In this document: positions 4,288 through 36,765 of the stretch, piece by piece
Layout of the letters: every line of letters starts with the position of its first letter
How positions within the stretch are numbered: the stretch's first letter is position 1
Assembly (NCBI RefSeq): GCF_001076885.1
Contig: NZ_JVDT01000195.1
Span: forward strand, 1-39,221
Source of the DNA: Bacillus sp. 522_BSPC
Lineage (GTDB): Bacteria; Bacillota; Bacilli; Bacillales; Cytobacillaceae
Direction: 5' to 3'
Length of the DNA stretch: 39,221 nucleotides
Made by a program: the position numbers and the translations under genes
The notes under the pieces: model-generated
Databases searched by the model: none
Told to the model about the DNA's origin: nothing
What the model saw: the letters and a program-made list of their open reading frames with translations, nothing else

Positions 4288-5290
4288 GGTGGATCACCTC
4301 CACGTTTTTAGTACGACCTTTAATATACGCAATCGCTTTTGTAATTTCATCATCAGCACCTGTTAATTCCATAATAAAAATTCCAAGTGGGTTGTTTTGA
4401 ATGTATTCAATCTTTCCATGAAGAATATTTCCTTTAACTGAATATTGTTGGAAAGCATCCGATATAATTCCTTCTTCTGCAATAACTCCTTGGAAGGTAA
4501 CCTTAATAATTTTTCCTGTTCGTTCTTCTAATAGATGGCTTGGTAATTCAAATTGAAGAATGCTATTTACAAAACTTTTTGTAAGTTCTTGTCTTGGGTT
4601 AGCGAACATATCGTATACAGGCCCTTCTTCAATTACCTTTCCAGCTTCCATAACAGCCATGCGATCACAAATATCTTTTACAACTTCCATTTCATGGGTG
4701 ATTAAAACGATGGTTAAGCCAAGTTCCTTATTAATTTTTTTTAACAATGCTAGAATTGATTTCGTTGTACTTGGATCCAGAGCAGAAGTTGCCTCATCAC
4801 AAAGGAGAACGGTTGGGTTATTGGCAAGTGCCCTTGCAATCCCTACCCTTTGTTTTTGCCCACCACTTAATTGGGCAGGAAAGACGTCTTTTTTATCGGT
4901 TAATCCTACCATATCGAGTAGCTCTAAAACCCGGGTATGGATTTTTTTTGATGGTAAATTTGCCGCTTTAAGAGCGAAAGCGATATTTTCATATACGGTT
5001 TTACTACTAACAAGATAGAAGTGTTGGAAGATCATTCCTATTTTTAATCGAGCAGCTCTTAATTGTCTTTGATTCAATTTTGTTAAAGATATATTATCGA
5101 TAATGATTTCGCCACTAGTAGGCTTTTCCAATAGATTAAGACAACGAAGAAGCGAGCTTTTTCCAGCACCGCTATAGCCTACGATTCCAAAGATTTCTCC
5201 TTTTTGTATGGATAAGGAAACATGGTCTACACCTATAACTTGTTCTTTCTTTGTGTTATATACCTTCACCAAATCGTTAATTTGTATCAT
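4277..5290 (-). CDS. metN: Methionine ABC transporter ATP-binding protein MetN
   Basis: 337 aa from the ATG at 5290, which gives the family-typical start MIQINDLVKVY. A TTG four codons upstream (5302) is possible but sits almost on the AAGGGGG site. Walker A is GYSGAGKSS, the ABC signature is LSGGQKQR, and Walker B is VLLCDEATSALD. The last ~90 residues form the NIL regulatory domain that senses intracellular methionine in this family. It is the first gene of the operon and powers methionine import. It is controlled by the S-box leader at 5410-5513. Confidence 0.95.
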   Translation of the reverse strand: MIQINDLVKVYNTKKEQVIGVDHVSLSIQKGEIFGIVGYSGAGKSSLLRCLNLLEKPTSGEIIIDNISLTKLNQRQLRAARLKIGMIFQHFYLVSSKTVYENIAFALKAANLPSKKIHTRVLELLDMVGLTDKKDVFPAQLSGGQKQRVGIARALANNPTVLLCDEATSALDPSTTKSILALLKKINKELGLTIVLITHEMEVVKDICDRMAVMEAGKVIEEGPVYDMFANPRQELTKSFVNSILQFELPSHLLEERTGKIIKVTFQGVIAEEGIISDAFQQYSVKGNILHGKIEYIQNNPLGIFIMELTGADDEITKAIAYIKGRTKNVEVIHHAS

Positions 5291-5361
5291 TAGAAACTTC
5301 AAATCCCCCTTTACATGAACATTTTTCGACTATACTAGAATGTTAAAACCTCCTATAACAT

Positions 5362-5389
5362 AAAAAAACTTCTTTCATTTGAAAGAAGT
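5362..5389 (-). terminator. S-box expression-platform terminator
   Basis: Stem ACTTCTTTCA/TGAAAGAAGT (5368-5377 and 5380-5389) followed by seven T on the minus strand, between the SAM aptamer and metN. Formation of this stem in the SAM-bound state would stop transcription before the operon. Confidence 0.85.
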
Positions 5390-5409
5390 ATCGTATGCAT
5401 ATAGCCGAT

Positions 5410-5513
5410 CTTATCTTTCAGAATAAGTAATTCTGCAGGAGTTAGCACCTTCCTTTAGGAAAGGAGGTTGCTGGATGTCATCGGGCCTGTTCCCTCAATC
5501 TCTCTTGATAAGT
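5410..5513 (-). ncRNA. SAM-I (S-box) riboswitch controlling metNIQ
   Basis: Read on the minus strand it shows the S-box core in order: CTTATCAAGAGAG opening P1, GAGGGAACAGGCCCGATGA, CATCCAGCAACC, GGTGCTAACTCCTGCAG, and closing CTGAAAGATAAG pairing back to the start. This is an essentially complete consensus match. A terminator hairpin follows at once. Binding of S-adenosylmethionine is expected to shut off the methionine importer. Confidence 0.97.
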
Positions 5514-5538
5514 AAATATGAAATTTTCACTAAATGAA

Positions 5539-5567
5539 TAATAAAACTAAAATACTGAATTGTCAAT
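5539..5567 (-). promoter_or_regulatory. SigA promoter of the S-box/metNIQ transcript
   Basis: TTGACA (5562-5567), a 17-bp spacer, and TATTAT (5539-5544) on the minus strand, about 25 bp before the riboswitch. Confidence 0.8.
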
Positions 5568-5685
5568 ATAAATTTACAATTTGCAACACACTAAAAGCTT
5601 GATTGGATCCCACTTTTTGAACTATGTTCTTTAAGTAGATATATGATAGAATGGTTTTTAGCAAAATGGAACAAAGGGTGACAGA

Positions 5686-5946
5686 ATGAATAGTCAAGAA
5701 ATGAATTTAGAATTTGTGCGTCTGTTAAATGAATGGGATCCCTTTTCAATAGGGGAAGGGAATTATGATACCGAAATTGCTGATATTCTACAAGCAATCC
5801 ACGATTTAGATAAGGAAGAAGAGTTAGCAAATGCTATCCAAGCAATTTATGAATTTTCTTTTGAAGAAACGATTCCTTTGGAGAAGTGCTTCACAATCTC
5901 GAAAAAACTTATGACCATAAAACGTAGCGGCATCTGTTCACTATAA
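5686..5946 (+). CDS. DUF1871 (YugE-type) family protein
   Basis: 86 aa, soluble and acidic. It contains the DUF1871 pattern LLNEWDPFSIGEGNYDTEIADILQAI and a C-terminal FSFEETIPLEKC..ISKKL segment. B. subtilis yugE, of this family, also lies upstream of the alaR-alaT region, which supports the assignment. The ATG follows AAAGGGTGA at good spacing. A possible promoter is TTGAAC-N17-TATATG upstream. No biochemical role is known to me. Confidence 0.85.
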   Translation: MNSQEMNLEFVRLLNEWDPFSIGEGNYDTEIADILQAIHDLDKEEELANAIQAIYEFSFEETIPLEKCFTISKKLMTIKRSGICSL

Positions 5947-6147
5947 GGACAGGAAGATGTGTTTAAACAATCTTTATCTGGTCTGAATTCATTCTGTTGG
6001 CAAAGTTTAAACTTCGCCTTCGGGTGGATTCCTATCATTAATCCAATGGAAAATGTTCTTTACGCTACCTCTTTTAGAAGCAATGGAGATTAACTAAAAA
6101 CGAAAGCCCAAAATTAAAAATGTACGAAAAGTTTAGGGATAATTTGA

Positions 6148-28788: not shown

Positions 28789-29571
28789 CTATAAAAGAGA
28801 CTCTGCACCATCAATATAAATTTCTGTGCCTGTAATATGGTTAGATAAATCAGAGCTTAAAAAATATACTAAATCGGCCACTTGCTGTGCACTGCCTGAT
28901 TCATTGGATAGTGGTTGATTCCCTTCAGGATATTCAACAGGTATCGTTATTTCTGTTAAGTGTTTCTCATCTTTAAATGTATTTTTTTCAATATTTGTAT
29001 CTATTGCGCCAGGGCAAATCATATTTACTCGAATTTTAAATTGTGCTAATTCAAGTGCAGCCATTTTTCCGAATGCGACTTGGCCAGCTTTTGAGGTACT
29101 GTAAGCAGACATTCCAAAGTTCTTAAAAATACGATTTCCATTTATACTACTTGTAATAATAATACTTCCGCCATTTGTTTTCATATAAGGAATACTATAT
29201 TTAACCGTTAAAAAGGTGCTTTTCAGATTTGTGTCTATCGTGTTATCCCATTCGGATGGTGTAAGATCTTCGATGGATGAAACGGCGCCATTAATACCAG
29301 CATTAATAAAAACGGTATCTAATTTATCCCATTTCTTAACCGTTTCATCAATAGCTCGTTGAATAGAAGTAGGATCAGCCACATTTGCTTCGATGGATAT
29401 AGCTTCTTGCCCTTTATCATTAATGGAATTTTTCACTTCTTCTAAATCGTCAGCATTTAAGTCAACTAAAGCTACTTTCATCCCTTTATTTGCAAGTGAG
29501 AGTGCTGCTGCTTTTCCAATGCCTGAAGCTGCTCCCGTAATAAGTGCTACTTTATTTTTGAGGTCTGTCAT
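28789..29571 (-). CDS. Short-chain dehydrogenase/reductase (SDR, classical)
   Basis: 260 aa from the ATG at 29571, which has AAGGAGG 8 nt upstream. Rossmann motif TGAASGIGK, NAG (INAGINGAV), catalytic Ser of ITSSINGN and YSTSK of the YxxxK motif are intact. Closest in style to 3-oxoacyl-ACP reductase/glucose-dehydrogenase-like SDRs. Its stop codon lies at the very edge of repeat copy C. It is divergent from an MDR oxidoreductase with palindromes between, so the two may be co-regulated. Substrate unknown. Confidence 0.92.
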   Translation of the reverse strand: MTDLKNKVALITGAASGIGKAAALSLANKGMKVALVDLNADDLEEVKNSINDKGQEAISIEANVADPTSIQRAIDETVKKWDKLDTVFINAGINGAVSSIEDLTPSEWDNTIDTNLKSTFLTVKYSIPYMKTNGGSIIITSSINGNRIFKNFGMSAYSTSKAGQVAFGKMAALELAQFKIRVNMICPGAIDTNIEKNTFKDEKHLTEITIPVEYPEGNQPLSNESGSAQQVADLVYFLSSDLSNHITGTEIYIDGAESLL

Positions 29572-29584
29572 TTTTGTATCCTCC

Positions 29585-29636
29585 TTGATAAATATCAATT
29601 ACGATATTGTTTAGTATGATAGCGATAAGATACTAA
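29585..29636. promoter_or_regulatory. Palindromes in the SDR/MDR divergent promoter region
   Basis: TTGATA-AA-TATCAA (29585-29598), a perfect 14-bp palindrome at the SDR ribosome site, and TTAGTAT (29611-29617) with ATACTAA (29630-29636). A third imperfect inverted repeat lies at 29660-29689. They suggest an operator shared by the divergent genes. Confidence 0.4.
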
Positions 29637-29759
29637 TATCCATTTTTTCCAAAGTAGAAACTTTTTTACTGCCAGTAGTAGAAAAAAGTGGATGGCAATC
29701 CTATATTTTCGAATTAATGCAACAAATTAGGTAATATGGATATAAAGGAGATGATTTTG

Positions 29760-30755
29760 ATGAAGGCAATGGTAATAGAAAAATTTGGGGAGTCATCAGT
29801 ATTTAAATTAAAGGAAATAGATACAAAAAGACTATTTCCTGGCCAAGTACGAATAAAAGTAAAGGCAACAAGTGTGAATCCCATTGATATTAAAGTTCGA
29901 ATTGGTGCTGTACCAGGCGTTTCTCCATCCTTTCCAGCAGTATTGCATGGGGATGTTGCTGGGGTCATTGAGGAAGTAGGAGAGGGAGTAGAGTCCTTTC
30001 AAGTAGGGGACGAAGTATATGGATGTGCAGGTGGCTTCAAGGGGCTAGATGGAGCATTGGTAGAGTATATGATTGCTGATTCATCCGTTTTAGCACATAA
30101 ACCACAAAATATTACTATGGAAGAAGCTGCAGCACTCCCTCTTGTTGGAATTACGGCATGGGAGTCATTATTTACAAAAGGTGATTTAAAAAAAGGAGAT
30201 ACTATCCTTATCCATGGTGGTGCAGGAGGCGTTGGCCATATTGCAATCCAGTTAGCTAAGTGGATGGGAGCAACTGTTTTTACAACTGCTTCATCCATTG
30301 AAAAACAAACAGTCGCAAAAGAATTAGGAGCTGATTATATCATTCCTTATCGAGAAGTGTCTGTAAAAGAGTATGTTGAAAAGTACACAGATGGGAAAGG
30401 ATTTTCATTAGTTTTTGATACAGTAGGTGGTGATAATCTCGATCGTTCTTTTGAGGCAGCTTCCTTAAATGGTACAGTATTAACTATCGCTGCCAGGTCT
30501 ACACATGATTTGACTCCTTTACATTCGAAATCACTTTCCCTACATGTTATCTTTATGCTTCTGAAACTCCTTGATGAGGAGAAGCGTTTTGAACATGGAG
30601 ATATCTTGCGAAATATCACTAAAGTGATAGAAGAAAATCGTTTAAAGCCACTACTTGATAAAAAGACCTTTTCTTTCGAGGAAGTAGGAGAAGCACATGA
30701 ATATTTAGAGTCGGGGAAGGCAGTAGGAAAAGTAGTTCTTGTAAATAAATGGTAG
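29760..30755 (+). CDS. Zinc-independent MDR oxidoreductase (quinone oxidoreductase-like)
   Basis: 331 aa from the ATG at 29760, with AAAGGAG 9 nt upstream. N-terminal GroES-like domain (FPAVLHGDVAGVIEEVGEGV) and a Rossmann domain with GGAGGVGHIAIQLAKWMGA. The catalytic-zinc Cys/His ligands of true alcohol dehydrogenases are missing, so it is a QOR/YhdH-like NADPH reductase. Divergent from the SDR gene. Likely acts on quinones or reactive carbonyls; exact substrate unknown. Confidence 0.92.
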   Translation: MKAMVIEKFGESSVFKLKEIDTKRLFPGQVRIKVKATSVNPIDIKVRIGAVPGVSPSFPAVLHGDVAGVIEEVGEGVESFQVGDEVYGCAGGFKGLDGALVEYMIADSSVLAHKPQNITMEEAAALPLVGITAWESLFTKGDLKKGDTILIHGGAGGVGHIAIQLAKWMGATVFTTASSIEKQTVAKELGADYIIPYREVSVKEYVEKYTDGKGFSLVFDTVGGDNLDRSFEAASLNGTVLTIAARSTHDLTPLHSKSLSLHVIFMLLKLLDEEKRFEHGDILRNITKVIEENRLKPLLDKKTFSFEEVGEAHEYLESGKAVGKVVLVNKW

Positions 30756-31071: not shown

Positions 31072-31317
31072 GTAAAACAATATGTTTTGTTAAAAGCAGG
31101 CTACACAAGGTTCTGACGATAAAAGCAAAGTGTTAGAAAAATTCTTGTTAATAAATGGGGATTGCTAATCATTAGCTTTGTTAGTTAGAAATACTTTGAT
31201 GTAGCCATTTTTATTTGTATTTGTGGCAATTTGTACATTTTCGTTTATTTTACTGATGTAAATCGATTTTCATAGTAAAATACAAATGTAAGGAATATTA
31301 TTTAGGAGAACATGAAG

Positions 31318-32490
31318 ATGAAATCGGTTATTACTGGGATGGGGATAATAGGAGCGGGTTTTTCCAATATAAAAGAGTATACCACTGTACTTAAAAATAA
31401 TAAAAGTATGTTAAAGCAGGAAGAATATGAAGGGAAATACATATATACTGGTAGGGTGCATGAAGAACAATTAATTAAGTTAAGTAGAAAGCAAGAAAAA
31501 ATGTCTAAACCTGTACGTATGCTTCTACAAGCATGTAACGAAGCAATAGAGCAATCAAAAATTAATGTTAGGGATTATCGAACAGCAGTAATCGTTGGTT
31601 CTTCAGCAGGGGGCTTAGCAGATATTAGTAAAGCTGCTATTTCTTCAGAAAAAGGAAAAAGGCTTTCTCCTTATACAATTGGAAACATGAATGCTAATTC
31701 TTTATCCTCAAGCATTAGTGCTTATTTGGAAATAAACGGTTTATCATTATCGTTGGCAAATAGTTGTACATCGGGTATAGATGCTTTAAATTTAGCGAGA
31801 ATATTAATTGAATCCAATCAAATAGATGTTTGTATAGTTGGTGCTAGTGATGAGTCTGTTTGTGACACTGTTATAAAAGGGTTTCTACCCCAGCGTGTTT
31901 TACAATCTGAAGAACATCCTCAACCCCTATTTGGACCATTTTCAGGAGGAAAAGGATTTTCAATCTCAGAAGGTGCTGGCGTGTTAATTGTGGAAAATGA
32001 ACAAATTGCCATACAAAGAAATGCCTCTATATTAGGGAAAGTAGATGCTACTTGTGTAACACAGGATGCCGTTTCGCCCTATCAATCAGATTCAACAGGT
32101 TTGCTCATGCAAAAGGCAGTTGCTGAATGTCTTCAAGAGAATATGCCAACGTATATAAATAGTCAAGCTTTAGGTATATTGGAAAATGACCATATTGAAA
32201 TAGGAGTTTATCAACGTTTTTTTGAAACGAATCAGATTCCGATTACATCTATTAAAGGAACAGTTGGCCATGCAATGGGAGCTTCTCCACTCTTTCAAAT
32301 AATTGCATCATTAATAAGCATAAGTAATCGGTTTATACCAGCAACTATTAGCGCAGAAATAGATGCATATTATTGGAATTACCCAATAAATACAATGTTA
32401 TTAGAACAAGAGATTGATCGGGTTTTAATAACAGCACACGGTTACGGAGGTAATAATGGGTGCGCTATGATAGCGAAAGGAGGAGCATAG
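31318..32490 (+). CDS. Atypical beta-ketoacyl synthase (FabF-like, HGT-motif His replaced)
   Basis: 390 aa from the ATG at 31318, with AGGAG 9 nt upstream; an ATG at 31312 is too close. Thiolase-fold KAS of FabF type. Nucleophile Cys150 is in ANSCTSGIDAL; K313 and H318 are in SIKGTVGHAMGAS. The position of the other catalytic His (HGT motif, after YIN) reads YINSQALG with Gln283, while the following ND..E is kept. The usual SFGFGGTN near the C-terminus is AHGYGGNN. Condensation chemistry is therefore doubtful; acyl transfer or a related reaction is possible. It is directly coupled to a 7-TM histidine kinase. No other fatty-acid or polyketide genes are nearby. Confidence 0.88.
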   Translation: MKSVITGMGIIGAGFSNIKEYTTVLKNNKSMLKQEEYEGKYIYTGRVHEEQLIKLSRKQEKMSKPVRMLLQACNEAIEQSKINVRDYRTAVIVGSSAGGLADISKAAISSEKGKRLSPYTIGNMNANSLSSSISAYLEINGLSLSLANSCTSGIDALNLARILIESNQIDVCIVGASDESVCDTVIKGFLPQRVLQSEEHPQPLFGPFSGGKGFSISEGAGVLIVENEQIAIQRNASILGKVDATCVTQDAVSPYQSDSTGLLMQKAVAECLQENMPTYINSQALGILENDHIEIGVYQRFFETNQIPITSIKGTVGHAMGASPLFQIIASLISISNRFIPATISAEIDAYYWNYPINTMLLEQEIDRVLITAHGYGGNNGCAMIAKGGA

Positions 32491-32491
32491 T

Positions 32492-34213
32492 GTGGAAGCT
32501 ATATTATTATTGATGGTTTCGTTAGTTCCACTCATTATTTCTGTGACGATAATTTTTTATTCACAGTCTCAGTTAACAAAGGCCTTATCGCTATTTTTAT
32601 GTATGTTAGCTTTCTGGCAAATGGATATTGCTGTATTATATGCAGTAGATTTTTTGAAGCAGGAAACAATTGAACTTTTATTTAAAATATTTAGACTTGG
32701 AACTATCTGCATAATGCCAGTCATGTATTATTTTTCTTATTATTTAGTAAGCGAAAATAAAGAATTTAAACGATTTAGATTTGTGTTTAATAAGCCGTTT
32801 TTATACGTAATAATCATCTACAGTTTATTTGCATATTTTATTAATTTTACCAGCCTTGGCATTAAAGATTTTGTAGTAATAGAGGGTAATTGGCTTTCCT
32901 CCGAATATGTTCTTCCGATTTATGGGGAATGGAATATACTATTTATAATTAATATTGTCTTATTATATTTAAATACGATTATTTTATTGATCATTTCTTT
33001 TAAAATTAGAGATCCAATCTATAAAAGTTTTTATATAAAGTTTGTGATTGCTGTATTAATTATCTATATAAATGGTGTTTTTAGTGGTTATATTTTTATA
33101 CCGCTGTTTTTTTCTAGTTTTAACTCATTAATTGCAGCAGTTATTTTATTCTTAAGTTTTTTCCAGATGCAATCAACACATATGAATATTATGAATATGG
33201 AGCTGTCGAGGCAAAGTGAATTATTAGAAGCGATTATGGATATAAACCCTAATTATCTATTAGTTAAGAATGGGAAAGATCAGATAGTCAAAATGAATCC
33301 TTCTTTCTTACATCTACTTTCATTAGAAAACAAGGTTTGGTTAGGTCAACCATTTTCTTATATTACAGATCGCATTAACATGGAAACAGAGAAACCTTAT
33401 CGCTTTGTAGACAGTAGAGGGAAAAACTACTTTCTGATTTGGGGAAAAAAAGAACTTATACATAGTACTGGGGAAGAATATCATATTTATTTTGGTAATG
33501 ACATTACGGATCAAAAGCATAATGAACAACTGATGATCTCTTCTGAGAAATTAAAAGTGGTAGGCGAGATGGCAGCAAGTGTCGCGCATGAAATCCGAAA
33601 TCCTTTGACGACCATCAGAGGTTTTATTCAGCTACTCAAGGAGAAGAATGATGCTTCTGGTTATGAAACGATTTTAATTGAAGAAATTGATCGAATTAAT
33701 GAAGTCTTAAAGGAATTGCTTATACTAAGTAAGCCAGAGGCGAAAGAAAATGAAAATAATATTCTGCCATTAACGAAAGTCTTTATGGAATTGAAAAATA
33801 TTAAAGTTTTATTTCAAGCCCTGGCTAATGAACAAAATAAAGAGATTATTGTAGAAACTAGGAAGGATCAAGAATTAATAGCATCAATTGATAATTCCCA
33901 GTTTAAACAAGTAATGCTGAATATATTGAAAAATAGTATGGAGGCGATTTCGCCACAAACAGGTAAAGTAAAAGTTATTCTTGATCAGAAAAAGGATAAT
34001 TGTCGAATTAGAATAATTGATAATGGTGATGGAATAAGTAAAGAAAGGCTAGCAAGAATAGGAGAACCTTACTATACAAGTAAAGAAAAAGGAACTGGTA
34101 TAGGTTTAACAATTTGTTTAAAACTTCTTAAACAAAATAATGGAGATATGGTAGTGAAGAGTAAAGAGGGATGGGGTACAGTCGTAACCATTATGTTACC
34201 GTGTTATCATTAA
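32492..34213 (+). CDS. 7-TM PAS sensor histidine kinase (sporulation-kinase-like)
   Basis: 573 aa. Seven hydrophobic segments (about 2-24, 30-52, 63-87, 102-120, 147-170, 180-202, 205-226), a PAS domain (about 240-340), HisKA with H366 in SVAHEIRNPLTTIRG, and a HATPase (LNILKNSMEAI; DNGDGIS; GTGIGLTI). The H-box type is that of KinA-like phosphorelay kinases, and no response regulator is adjacent, so Spo0F input is possible. The GTG start lies 1 bp after the ketosynthase stop; its AAAGGAGG ribosome site is inside the ketosynthase gene, implying coupling. The multi-TM N-terminus suggests a hydrophobic or membrane signal. Confidence 0.92.
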   Translation: MEAILLLMVSLVPLIISVTIIFYSQSQLTKALSLFLCMLAFWQMDIAVLYAVDFLKQETIELLFKIFRLGTICIMPVMYYFSYYLVSENKEFKRFRFVFNKPFLYVIIIYSLFAYFINFTSLGIKDFVVIEGNWLSSEYVLPIYGEWNILFIINIVLLYLNTIILLIISFKIRDPIYKSFYIKFVIAVLIIYINGVFSGYIFIPLFFSSFNSLIAAVILFLSFFQMQSTHMNIMNMELSRQSELLEAIMDINPNYLLVKNGKDQIVKMNPSFLHLLSLENKVWLGQPFSYITDRINMETEKPYRFVDSRGKNYFLIWGKKELIHSTGEEYHIYFGNDITDQKHNEQLMISSEKLKVVGEMAASVAHEIRNPLTTIRGFIQLLKEKNDASGYETILIEEIDRINEVLKELLILSKPEAKENENNILPLTKVFMELKNIKVLFQALANEQNKEIIVETRKDQELIASIDNSQFKQVMLNILKNSMEAISPQTGKVKVILDQKKDNCRIRIIDNGDGISKERLARIGEPYYTSKEKGTGIGLTICLKLLKQNNGDMVVKSKEGWGTVVTIMLPCYH

Positions 34214-34356: not shown

Positions 34357-34398
34357 TAAAAAAAGGATATTTGAAGGGGAAAGCCCCTTTAAATATCC
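34357..34398. terminator. Terminator of the polyamine operon (also usable by the kinase gene)
   Basis: On the minus strand GGATATTT-A-AAGGGG pairs with CCCCTT-C-AAATATCC, followed by T7. It lies between convergent genes. Confidence 0.9.
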
Positions 34399-34412: not shown

Positions 34413-35552
34413 TTAAGATAATCGATTACTATAATCTTCAAACACAAATTGGCGAACAACTTTTATTCCTTCTTCTTCATTATAGGAAGCTATAGAAGGT
34501 AAATTAACACCGTTAAACATATGGTTTTTTACCATAGTGTAGTGAGCCATGTCGCAGAAGACAATTTTATCGCCAGGCTTTAATGGCTTTTTGAAAGAAT
34601 AATCGCCAATGACATCTCCAGCTAAACACGTCATTCCGCCGAGTCTATAGGTATATTCATTTTCACCAGGCGTTCCAGCATCAATAATATTCGGTCGATA
34701 TGGCATTTCAAGCACATCTGGCATATGACATGTTGCTGATGTATCAAGAATAGCAATATCCATTCCATTATGAACAATATCAAGGACAGTGGATACTAAG
34801 TAACCTGTATTCAAAGCAATAGCTTCACCTGGTTCTAAATAAACATCTACATTATATTTTTCTTTTATAAATAATATAGATTCTACTAAGGTTTCAATAT
34901 CATAATCTGGTCGTGTAATATGATGTCCTCCTCCAAAGTTGATCCATTTCATTTTCTTTATATGTTCACCGAACTTCTCATCAACTACTTTTATCGTACG
35001 CTTTAAAGTATCAGAATTTTGTTCACACATTGTATGAAAATGAAGCCCGTCTATTCCATCTAATTCTTCTGGATTAAAGTTATCCATAGTTATACCAAAG
35101 CGAGAGTAAGGAGCACAAGGATTATAAAGCTGTGTTTCTATCTCTGAGTATTCAGGATTAATTCGAAGACCTACATCAATTTTCTTTCCAGCGTTTTGAA
35201 CCTTATCTTTAAATCGATTCCATTGGCTGTGTGAATTAAAAACGATATGGTCTGTATATTGAAGTAATTCATCGAACTCACTCTCAGCATATGCAGGTGC
35301 ATACGCATGCACTTCTTTGCCCATTTTTTCATACCCAAGTCTAGCTTCAAATAATGAACTTGATGTTACCCCTGCTAAGTATTTTCCTACTAGAGGAAAT
35401 ACAGAGTGCATGGAAAAACCTTTTAATGCAAGCAGAATTTTTGCACCTGTTCGCTCTTGTACAGACTGTAAAATTTCTAAATTTCTCGTTAAAAGACGCT
35501 CGTCCACTACATAACTTGGGGATGGAGCTTGTGTAAAGTCAATCTTTTTCAT
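34413..35552 (-). CDS. nspC: Carboxynorspermidine/carboxyspermidine decarboxylase (NspC/CASDC)
   Basis: 379 aa, PLP-dependent fold-III decarboxylase. The PLP Lys is in KILLALKGFSMHSVFP near the N-terminus. HFHTMCEQN, NFGGGHHITRPDYD and the EPGEAIALNTGYLV segment are characteristic. C-terminal CDMAHYTMVKNHMFNGV supplies active-site residues across the dimer. It decarboxylates carboxyspermidine to spermidine (or the nor-form). 10 bp after the dehydrogenase gene, same strand; GAGGA before the ATG. Confidence 0.92.
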   Translation of the reverse strand: MKKIDFTQAPSPSYVVDERLLTRNLEILQSVQERTGAKILLALKGFSMHSVFPLVGKYLAGVTSSSLFEARLGYEKMGKEVHAYAPAYAESEFDELLQYTDHIVFNSHSQWNRFKDKVQNAGKKIDVGLRINPEYSEIETQLYNPCAPYSRFGITMDNFNPEELDGIDGLHFHTMCEQNSDTLKRTIKVVDEKFGEHIKKMKWINFGGGHHITRPDYDIETLVESILFIKEKYNVDVYLEPGEAIALNTGYLVSTVLDIVHNGMDIAILDTSATCHMPDVLEMPYRPNIIDAGTPGENEYTYRLGGMTCLAGDVIGDYSFKKPLKPGDKIVFCDMAHYTMVKNHMFNGVNLPSIASYNEEEGIKVVRQFVFEDYSNRLS

Positions 35553-35562
35553 TTCATTCCTC

Positions 35563-36765
35563 TCAATCTATAAGAGTTGGAGAGAAGTTCTCCTGCCATG
35601 GTAATCCATATTTATTTAATGCATCCATGAATGGATCTGGATCAAATTCCTCAACATTGTATACTCCTGGGCGCTTCCATTGGCCTTTCATAATCAGCAT
35701 TGCCCCAATCATTGCTGGAACACCAGTAGTATAAGAAATTGCTTGAGATCCTACTTCACGATAACACTCTTGGTGATCGCAAATATTATATACATAATAA
35801 GTTTTTGGCTTTCCATCTTTTGTACCTTGAATGATACAGCCGATATTTGTTTTCCCTTTTGTTCTAGGTCCAAGAGAAGCTGGATCTGGAAGGATTTCTT
35901 TTAAGAACTGAAGCGGGATAATTTCTTTACCTTCATAATTAATTGGTTCAATAGATGTCATTCCAACATTTTCAAGAACCTTTAAGTGGTTTAGATAATT
36001 ATCAGAGAAAGTCATCCAGAAACGGATTCTCTTAAGTCCCTTAATGTTTACAGCTAATGATTCTAATTCTTCATGATATAAAAGATAAATGTTTTTTGGA
36101 CCAATTTGATCTAAATCATATTCTCTTTTTTCAGAAAGAGGTGGTGTCTCAACCCACTTGCCTTTTTCCCAATATCTTCCGTTCGCTGTGATTTCGCGAA
36201 TGTTGATTTCTGGATTAAAGTTGGTAGCGAATGGATAGCCGTGATCTCCACCATTCGCATCGACAATATCAATATAATTAATCTCATCGAAATGATGCTT
36301 TTGTGCATAAGCAGTGAAAACACCTGTTACCCCTGGATCAAATCCACTTCCAAGTAAGGCAGTTAGACCAGCTTCTTCAAACTTTTGTTTATATTCCCAT
36401 TGCCATTTATATTCAAATTTAGCTGTTTCAGGTGGTTCATAGTTTGCAGTATCTAAGTAATGTACACCAGTAGCAAGACAAGCATCCATTATAGTCAAGT
36501 CTTGATATGGTAATGCAACATTGATTACTATTTCTGGATTAAAGCTATTGATTAACTCAATCACTTCTTGTGTATTATCAGCATCGACTTGAGCAACTGA
36601 AACCTTTGTTTTGCCACCGTCAATTTTATCTTTAATTGCTTCACACTTAGAAAGTGTTCTGCTTGCAATACAAATTTCTTCGAATACATCCGGTACTTGA
36701 CAGCATTTATGTGCAACAACACTAGCTACTCCACCAGCACCAATAATTAATGCTTTTCCCAACAT
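35563..36765 (-). CDS. Carboxy(nor)spermidine synthase, saccharopine-dehydrogenase family (CASDH)
   Basis: 400 aa. N-terminal Rossmann motif ALIIGAGGVASVVAHKC; the central GSGFDPGVTGVFTAYAQKH and ANGGDHGYPFATNFNPEINIREI are typical of the LYS1-like CASDH group. It reductively condenses aspartate semialdehyde with putrescine (or diaminopropane) using NADPH. Followed at 10 bp by the decarboxylase, forming the two-gene alternative spermidine route in place of SpeD/SpeE. AAAGGAGG precedes the ATG; a TATAAT (minus strand) lies about 50 bp upstream. Confidence 0.92.
   Translation of the reverse strand: MLGKALIIGAGGVASVVAHKCCQVPDVFEEICIASRTLSKCEAIKDKIDGGKTKVSVAQVDADNTQEVIELINSFNPEIVINVALPYQDLTIMDACLATGVHYLDTANYEPPETAKFEYKWQWEYKQKFEEAGLTALLGSGFDPGVTGVFTAYAQKHHFDEINYIDIVDANGGDHGYPFATNFNPEINIREITANGRYWEKGKWVETPPLSEKREYDLDQIGPKNIYLLYHEELESLAVNIKGLKRIRFWMTFSDNYLNHLKVLENVGMTSIEPINYEGKEIIPLQFLKEILPDPASLGPRTKGKTNIGCIIQGTKDGKPKTYYVYNICDHQECYREVGSQAISYTTGVPAMIGAMLIMKGQWKRPGVYNVEEFDPDPFMDALNKYGLPWQENFSPTLID

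Follow-up and report, generated by a model that had tools for sequence, protein, structure and literature searches.

A ketosynthase-like protein paired with a seven-helix membrane receptor in Bacillales: a candidate acyl-linked sensory module

Background

Why should the gene of a ketosynthase relative lie directly in front of the gene of a membrane-bound histidine kinase? The question is raised by a contig of Bacillus sp. 522_BSPC (NZ_JVDT01000195.1, positions 1 to 39,221; "the window" hereafter means this whole stretch of 39,221 nucleotides), in which a gene for a ketosynthase-like (KS) protein of 392 aa with a rewired active site (31312..32490, forward strand) precedes a gene with a GTG start (32492..34213, forward strand) for a receptor kinase of 573 aa with a seven-transmembrane (7TM) part followed by PAS, HisKA and HATPase domains. 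The first-pass annotation of this DNA, made from its letters alone, had proposed a dedicated two-gene module of an acyl enzyme and its receptor, and had named in advance the lack of conservation outside close relatives as a ground for giving the idea up. No description of the KS/7TM pair was found in the open-access literature searched. Self-containment of the two genes as a sensory module is, in our view, the best explanation of the results below, and the pair may point to a little-known route by which cells read or send fat-derived information.

The two genes are tightly coupled. A single base separates the KS stop codon (32488-32490) from the GTG of the kinase gene, and the Shine-Dalgarno sequence of the latter, AAGGAGGA (32477..32484, forward strand, read from the sequence), lies within the KS gene, both as annotated. 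Translation of the KS gene probably starts at 31318, as also annotated, rather than at 31312, since the proteins of the two nearest relatives begin at that Met. Both genes are under purifying selection: compared with two congeners each, KS has a ratio of nonsynonymous to synonymous change (dN/dS) of about 0.12, and the kinase one of 0.06-0.07.

Conservation of the pair

A search for KS (E <=1e-40) in 193 genomes of the family to which the source bacterium belongs gave 24 matches, the window included, and a homologous 7TM N-terminus lies directly behind KS in all 24. A wider scan, with a KS profile on the genomes of 84,980 species, yielded 113 pattern stretches together with 93 relatives; the best 80 relatives were taken for analysis (many genomes are common to these 80 loci and the own-family 24). 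Their record titles name Bacillales and Paenibacillus. The 7TM gene is found directly downstream of KS in 79 of these best 80 loci, the exception being Domibacillus sp. PGB-M46 (L068), where the 7TM kinase is on a separate contig; KS always comes first, and 75 of the 79 pairs have a gap no longer than 49 bp. The core proposal of a dedicated module withstands the refuting condition named for it, as the pair is kept well beyond close relatives.

Little else is kept around the pair. Among 752 other neighbouring open reading frames (ORFs), the most frequent family recurs in at most 10 of the 80 loci, and no export, tailoring, carrier or lipid-pathway gene recurs nearby. The immediate flanks form 68 distinct contexts among the 75 loci for which both flanks are available (contexts were defined by the families of the immediate flanks, as linkage by any shared neighbour fused generic families into a 57-locus cluster). 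Over 83 pairs, in which identities fall as low as 28% for KS and 18% for the 7TM domain, the distances of the two proteins are correlated (r 0.874, reached in 0 of 2000 permutations), to which shared descent contributes.

Of 397 genomes of the order, 65 contain the 7TM domain and 31 the KS family, the latter at 33 places; a wide gap, between 5.1e-118 and 6.4e-73, sets this family apart from FabF-like matches. All 31 genomes that hold the KS also hold the 7TM domain (hypergeometric 2.5e-28, uncorrected for relatedness). Absences in these searches are of lower confidence, because mostly 4 (KS, order), 7 (7TM, order), 6 (class) or 8 (phylum) candidates per genome were scored. At class level, KS was found at 1e-80 in 18 of 299 genomes, which added 16 places (one of the 16, L209, being a record already seen as L069); at phylum level, the 7TM profile matched 2 of 348 genomes, both from the window's own order. 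A histidine kinase also follows KS in both of the plasmid records that match it. In these sets the KS-like protein is conserved and inherited together with one particular kind of 7TM receptor.

Active site of the ketosynthase-like protein

In Pfam, the window KS matches both the N-terminal (E 2.5e-29) and the C-terminal (E 2.3e-13) ketosynthase domains. Its best NCBIfam match is fabF (TIGR03150), at 175.2 of the 493.75 bits of the cut-off, and none of the 19 NCBIfam models listed for it reaches its cut-off; all 20 aligned KS relatives match the fabF model at E <=1e-3. The genome of the window carries two further KS-domain genes, both with FabF active sites.

Active-site positions were numbered with Escherichia coli FabF as alignment ruler and counted over 81 KS sequences. 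The nucleophile Cys152 (FabF Cys163; codon 31765..31767, forward strand, as are those that follow) is Cys in 81/81 and Lys315 (FabF Lys335; 32254..32256) is Lys in 81/81. The first catalytic His of FabF (His303) is replaced by Gln285 (32164..32166), with Gln in 76 sequences and Leu in 5. The peptide patterns of the wide scan contain NSQ or TSIK, so that the Gln285 and Lys315 counts are biased in the 80 loci, but Gln285 also occurs in 23/23 own-family members found without a sequence pattern; the patterns do not touch Cys152, His320 or His376. His320 (FabF second catalytic His340; 32269..32271) is His in 58 and Asn in 23 of the 81. A new His, His376 (32437..32439), stands at FabF Phe398, with His in 73 and Gln in 8; the two true FabFs of the same genome have Leu and Phe there. 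At least one of positions 320 and 376 is His in every one of the 81 sequences. Five columns that in FabF presumably serve docking of the acyl carrier protein (ACP) retain basic residues at 64-98% in the family.

Judged by its sequence, then, the upstream protein is not a FabF, as it stays below the cut-off and has lost the first catalytic His. The annotated "FabF-like" character holds for the ketosynthase domains, and canonical FabF activity is not supported, the first His being Gln or Leu. The family shares with FabF/KAS II the domain match, the Cys, the Lys and, in 58/81, the second His; it differs in the new His at Phe398, in its linkage to a receptor instead of fatty-acid genes, and in the canonical Cys-His-His set, which is broken at the first His throughout and at the second by the 23 Asn.

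Replacement of the first His marks the KS0 domains of trans-acyltransferase polyketide synthases (PKS), proposed as non-elongating and transthiolating in the passages of PMC8302727 devoted to them. The KS family has their two features, the kept Cys and the replaced first His, but KS0 are described there as domains of PKS assembly lines, and here the protein stands alone, with about 390 aa, beside a receptor.

A second comparison is with thiolases, for which we take Phe400 to be the KAS counterpart of thiolase Gly415, used for the same oxyanion hole. On that assumption, Phe398, and with it His376, would sit at the position of the thiolase base; in the passages of PMC6790690 on the thiolase site, oxyanion hole 2 consists of N(Cys126) and N(Gly415), and the base Cys413 comes two residues earlier. 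The thiolase set is Cys-Asn-His-Cys (CxS, NEAF, GHP and CxG loops), and the Cys-Gln-His-His of the window KS, although different from it, looks nearer to it than to the Cys-His-His-Phe of KAS. When the KS family was compared by hhalign with AtoB and FabH of E. coli, no usable alignment resulted, so we infer the loop equivalence from the literature and general knowledge of these enzymes. A thiolase C-domain was not found in the genome of the window.

Two side observations concern the reading frame. In L030 (genome G168) the KS gene at 4941-6112 (reverse strand) is split into two ORFs, with an intact 7TM kinase gene behind it, and a single TAG lies inside the matched stretch in 6 of the 33 KS places of the order search.

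The receptor and its outputs

Hydropathy of the window receptor gives overlapping peaks that we read as seven helices over approximately aa 1-228 (32492..33175, forward strand, as for the domains below). Over 124 relatives, with segment borders set by hand, mean net charges are +1.5, +3.1 and +2.1 for the inner loops and -1.4 and -1.1 for the two longer outer ones; this pattern fits a topology of seven membrane helices with the N-terminus outside and the C-terminus inside. Pfam gave zero matches at E <=1 on this region, and a sequence search of the PDB none at E <=1. In 20 other receptors known 7TM sensor families are absent from the Pfam tally, weak single matches (such as TgpA_N, E 0.15) being not placeable; DUF5931 reaches into the 7TM part of one class-level protein (L212) at E 0.061, below cut-off.

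The Pfam domains that follow are HisKA (33563..33742), with the phospho-acceptor His366 at 33587-33589 in the motif AHEIRNPLT, and HATPase_c (33890..34204); hydropathy, loop charges and Pfam thus agree with the annotated kinase of seven helices, HisKA and HATPase. The PAS domain also annotated (33218..33526) is marginal in the window protein (PAS_8 over aa 243-300, E 0.03; its end was taken from the alignment of relatives) and clear in relatives: among 21 receptors, Pfam reports HATPase_c in 15, HisKA in 14, PAS_4 in 12 (best 3e-12), GGDEF in 6 and EAL in 6.

Output types were assigned by home-made profiles and domain spacing. The 79 receptors comprise 32 7TM-histidine kinases (7TM-HK), 14 7TM-PAS-HK, 30 7TM-PAS-GGDEF-EAL, 2 7TM-GGDEF-EAL and one cut by a contig end, that is, 46 with a histidine kinase and 32 with GGDEF(-EAL). 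Of these 32, 30 show a GGDEF pattern; the EAL pattern is missing in 13, namely 11 from the Lysinibacillus/Ureibacillus/Psychrobacillus group, one with the EAL in the next ORF (L078) and one with a variant (L070). On the KS tree, the kinase and GGDEF types need 2 changes. Outputs are interchangeable while KS and the 7TM domain stay.

The 16 class-level places are more varied. Six have 7TM receptors, one of them 7TM-PAS-PAS-HK. In six others (L214, L215, L216, L218, L219 and L220), from one family and two genera (g166, g219), a kinase of about 395 aa comes right behind a KS of NSQALG type; its N-terminal domain has about 160 aa, with no membrane helix by hydropathy in the two members tested and no Pfam match above cut-off in the two scanned. 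The remaining four (L217, L221-L223) have no adjoining kinase, one being near a contig end. In L221, L222 and L223, from one genus, the KS gene lies behind a gene whose product looks by its sequence like an Old Yellow Enzyme. Elsewhere, in Aquibacillus rhizosphaerae, a second 7TM-HK gene (L117:9489-10925) follows a KS/7TM-HK pair.

The first-pass annotation had also suggested a sporulation relay. The closest PDB sequence match of the window kinase is indeed sporulation kinase B (3d36, E 1.4e-35), and the annotated sporulation-type H-box stands for the window; in the group with a bare kinase, however, the H-box is mostly HEVKN, against HEIRNPLT in the window. The likeness to KinB and KinD lies in HisKA-HATPase, and nothing matching them was found in the 7TM part: the curated KinD model gives 178.1 of 775 bits and covers only aa 345-571. 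The spore gene tlp, cited as neighbourhood evidence, is near 1 of the 80 loci, the Niallia one, and was rejected as such. With 32 of the 79 receptors carrying GGDEF(-EAL) and no kinase, a specific sporulation role is unsupported, and only the H-box similarity would speak for it.

In the 79 loci, a single-sequence phmmer search with a REC domain of the window found no response regulator gene on the strand of the receptor gene within 300 bp of it, as annotated for the window. Outside this set, a Rossellomorea plasmid does carry one: a single-domain response regulator of 119 aa (L231:7145-7504), which overlaps the end of the kinase gene behind KS. It is not recognisable as Spo0F, with no NCBIfam model near its cut-off and no PDB match at 1e-10.

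Receptors without a linked ketosynthase

By hand count, the 397 genomes of the order hold 76 7TM places, of which 31 adjoin KS and 45 do not; a neighbouring 7TM gene is lacking at two KS places (G503, G246:C5). Around the 38 unpaired receptors that were fetched, no intact KS gene was found within about 5 kb, two of them (L178, L182) ending at a contig edge and so not judgeable; one (L159) keeps a KS remnant, and for some a KS lies elsewhere in the genome. In 36 of the 38 the 7TM-HK is in one ORF, and in two (L167, L195) the kinase part is in separate ORFs. GGDEF occurs in none of the 38, and all 13 receptors of GGDEF-type length in the order search are beside KS.

On a 7TM tree of 86 paired and 38 unpaired rows, the paired/unpaired label needs 22 changes, at least 18 of them from well-supported branches, although long branches make some joins doubtful. 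Because of these changes, the remnant in L159 and the broken KS frame in G168, we read the pattern as repeated loss of KS from HK modules, a direction of change that we infer.

Unpaired receptors keep W42, Q43, R68, P142, G145 and G195 at 97-100%, and are weaker than paired ones at D45 (91 to 68%), G123 (100 to 86%) and S208 (95 to 78%). When each receptor was compared with its nearest paired relative over 12 segments (one-sided p, uncorrected), the cytosolic loops changed faster in unpaired receptors (p 0.0009, 0.017 and 0.001 for loops 1, 2 and 3). The outer loops showed no excess change (p 0.98 and 0.99) and the helices were less clear (lowest p 0.06). In permutations, the maximum over segments was reached in 1 of 500, and loop 1 alone in 0 of 400. 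This is a hint that KS may dock on the cytosolic loops.

What the pair may do

As part of a self-contained module, the KS-like protein would take an acyl chain from acyl-ACP or acyl-coenzyme A (CoA) onto Cys152 and, because the first His of FabF is gone, would presumably be incapable of ordinary malonyl-decarboxylating elongation. Sitting on the cytosolic loops of the receptor, it would hand over either an acyl product or its own acyl-loaded state. The 7TM bundle would integrate this information on the acyl-thioester pool with a separate ligand that it binds itself, and would switch the attached output. In the window, the kinase would phosphorylate its own His366 and pass the phosphoryl group to a response regulator encoded elsewhere. 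That KS is an acyl-loading partner on the cytosolic face of the receptor is the account towards which we lean, somewhat short of an even chance. Two facts favour cytosolic contact, the loop comparison and the kinases without membrane helices (6 loci, one family, two genera), whose partner signal would have to be read in the cytosol.

Several points weigh against this account. KS has apparently been lost many times while the 7TM domain stayed, so that it would not be needed for all signalling by HK-type receptors, and there are also KS genes with neither a receptor nor a kinase linked to them (L068/L192, L193 and the four class-level loci L217 and L221-L223). The helix-less kinases and the 7TM type share no sensor, which is awkward for a single docking surface. 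The loop comparison, finally, cannot be wholly separated from phylogeny, was suggested by entropies obtained earlier, spans 12 segments with uncorrected p values, and includes the two contig-end receptors among the unpaired.

Alternatively, KS could make a small acyl-derived signal, for instance by condensing two acyl thioesters without decarboxylation in the manner of a thiolase. The signal would leave the enzyme and be sensed by the 7TM domain from outside or within the membrane, as in a cassette of autoinducer synthase and receptor. We regard this as possible but doubtful. A diffusible product is favoured by the always retained Cys152 with a relocated His, and by the many unpaired receptors that largely conserve the membrane core. 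His320 or His376 is present in 81/81, and His376 would stand where thiolases carry their acid/base Cys (the base in those passages of PMC6790690, placed through the Phe400 equivalence assumed above). Receptors without KS have emerged time and again (18 or more label changes on the 7TM tree) and resemble eavesdropping "solos", a usual though not defining trait of cassettes (45 of 76 7TM places); their core residues are largely kept and their outer loops not relaxed. The linkage of acyl enzyme and membrane receptor, in 79/80 loci, is what such a cassette should have, and ketosynthases make signals elsewhere, as PpyS does photopyrones in the passages of PMC4578411 concerned. Yet genes for export, tailoring or a carrier do not recur around the pair, no compound is known, D45, G123 and S208 weaken in unpaired receptors, the faster change of their cytosolic loops points to contact, and the helix-less kinases read the signal inside the cell.

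The receptor might instead control or anchor an acyl-metabolic job of KS, which would then be the effector and not the input. Adjacency and co-inheritance are equally expected here, but no lipid-pathway gene recurs nearby and the receptors already end in complete, differing output domains beside the same KS, and we hold this to be improbable. A decayed FabF paralogue travelling with the receptor gene through operon history alone, which would agree with the lost first His, the broken frame in G168 and the remnant in L159, is hardly credible given a dN/dS of 0.12, Cys152 in 81/81 and a pair kept across 68 distinct contexts among 75 loci.

Returning to the acyl-loading account, its fullest form would be a new receptor class: a ketosynthase fold with a thiolase-like site (Cys152, Gln285, His320, His376), charged from acyl-ACP or acyl-CoA and docked to a new 7TM domain at its cytosolic loops, would pass its acyl product or loaded state into the bundle, with kinase or cyclic di-GMP (c-di-GMP) output across Bacillales. 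Taken with all its parts, this is a tentative proposal and rather unlikely to hold throughout. If true, it would provide a direct molecular link from acyl metabolism to kinase or c-di-GMP decisions in Bacillales and define a receptor domain so far absent from Pfam; the outcome would be either a new Gram-positive class of lipid autoinducer or a ketosynthase as sensor subunit, the latter to our knowledge the first. Since nature offers receptors with and without KS, and one KS family serving several outputs, these ideas can be tested directly.

Relation to known signalling systems

CqsA/CqsS, LqsA/LqsS and RpfF/RpfC also link an acyl-using enzyme to a multi-helix membrane kinase, through enzymes and receptors unrelated to those described here. 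A signal molecule is known for each of them and not for the KS/7TM pair. In the passages of PMC13220807 that treat CqsS, RpfC and RpfR, the last senses an acyl signal and has the PAS-GGDEF-EAL architecture also seen in receptors linked to KS. A ketosynthase also takes part in making the signals of PpyS/PluR and DarABC/PauR of Photorhabdus, as presented in parts of PMC4578411 and PMC13220807, but PpyS is given there with a Cys-His-Asn set and PluR and PauR as LuxR-type receptors.

Neighbouring genes in the window

The annotation had seen no reductase near the pair. A short-chain dehydrogenase/reductase (SDR) gene at 28789-29598 (reverse strand) nevertheless scores 400.5 bits, against a cut-off of 313, with the model of the 3-oxoacyl-ACP reductase FabG subfamily. 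Its closest counterpart among the 80 loci is an SDR-like family in just 5 (a family that was not profiled), and hence it is not a conserved neighbour. A gene for a medium-chain dehydrogenase/reductase (MDR)-type reductase lies near it at 29736-30755. A single copy of the 7TM domain was found in the genome of the window (45 of 45 candidates scored). A promoter scan found 14 against 18.4 expected, no excess over chance.

Downstream of the pair, the reverse-strand region 34413-36765 carries nspC, for carboxynorspermidine decarboxylase (535 bits, above cut-off), next to a gene resembling that of carboxynorspermidine synthase (427 of 800 bits). Between the kinase gene and nspC, at 34358-34398, a long, near-perfect hairpin followed by a T run on the minus strand was seen in the sequence, though the scan did not report it; it is likely the nspC terminator, and perhaps a bidirectional one.

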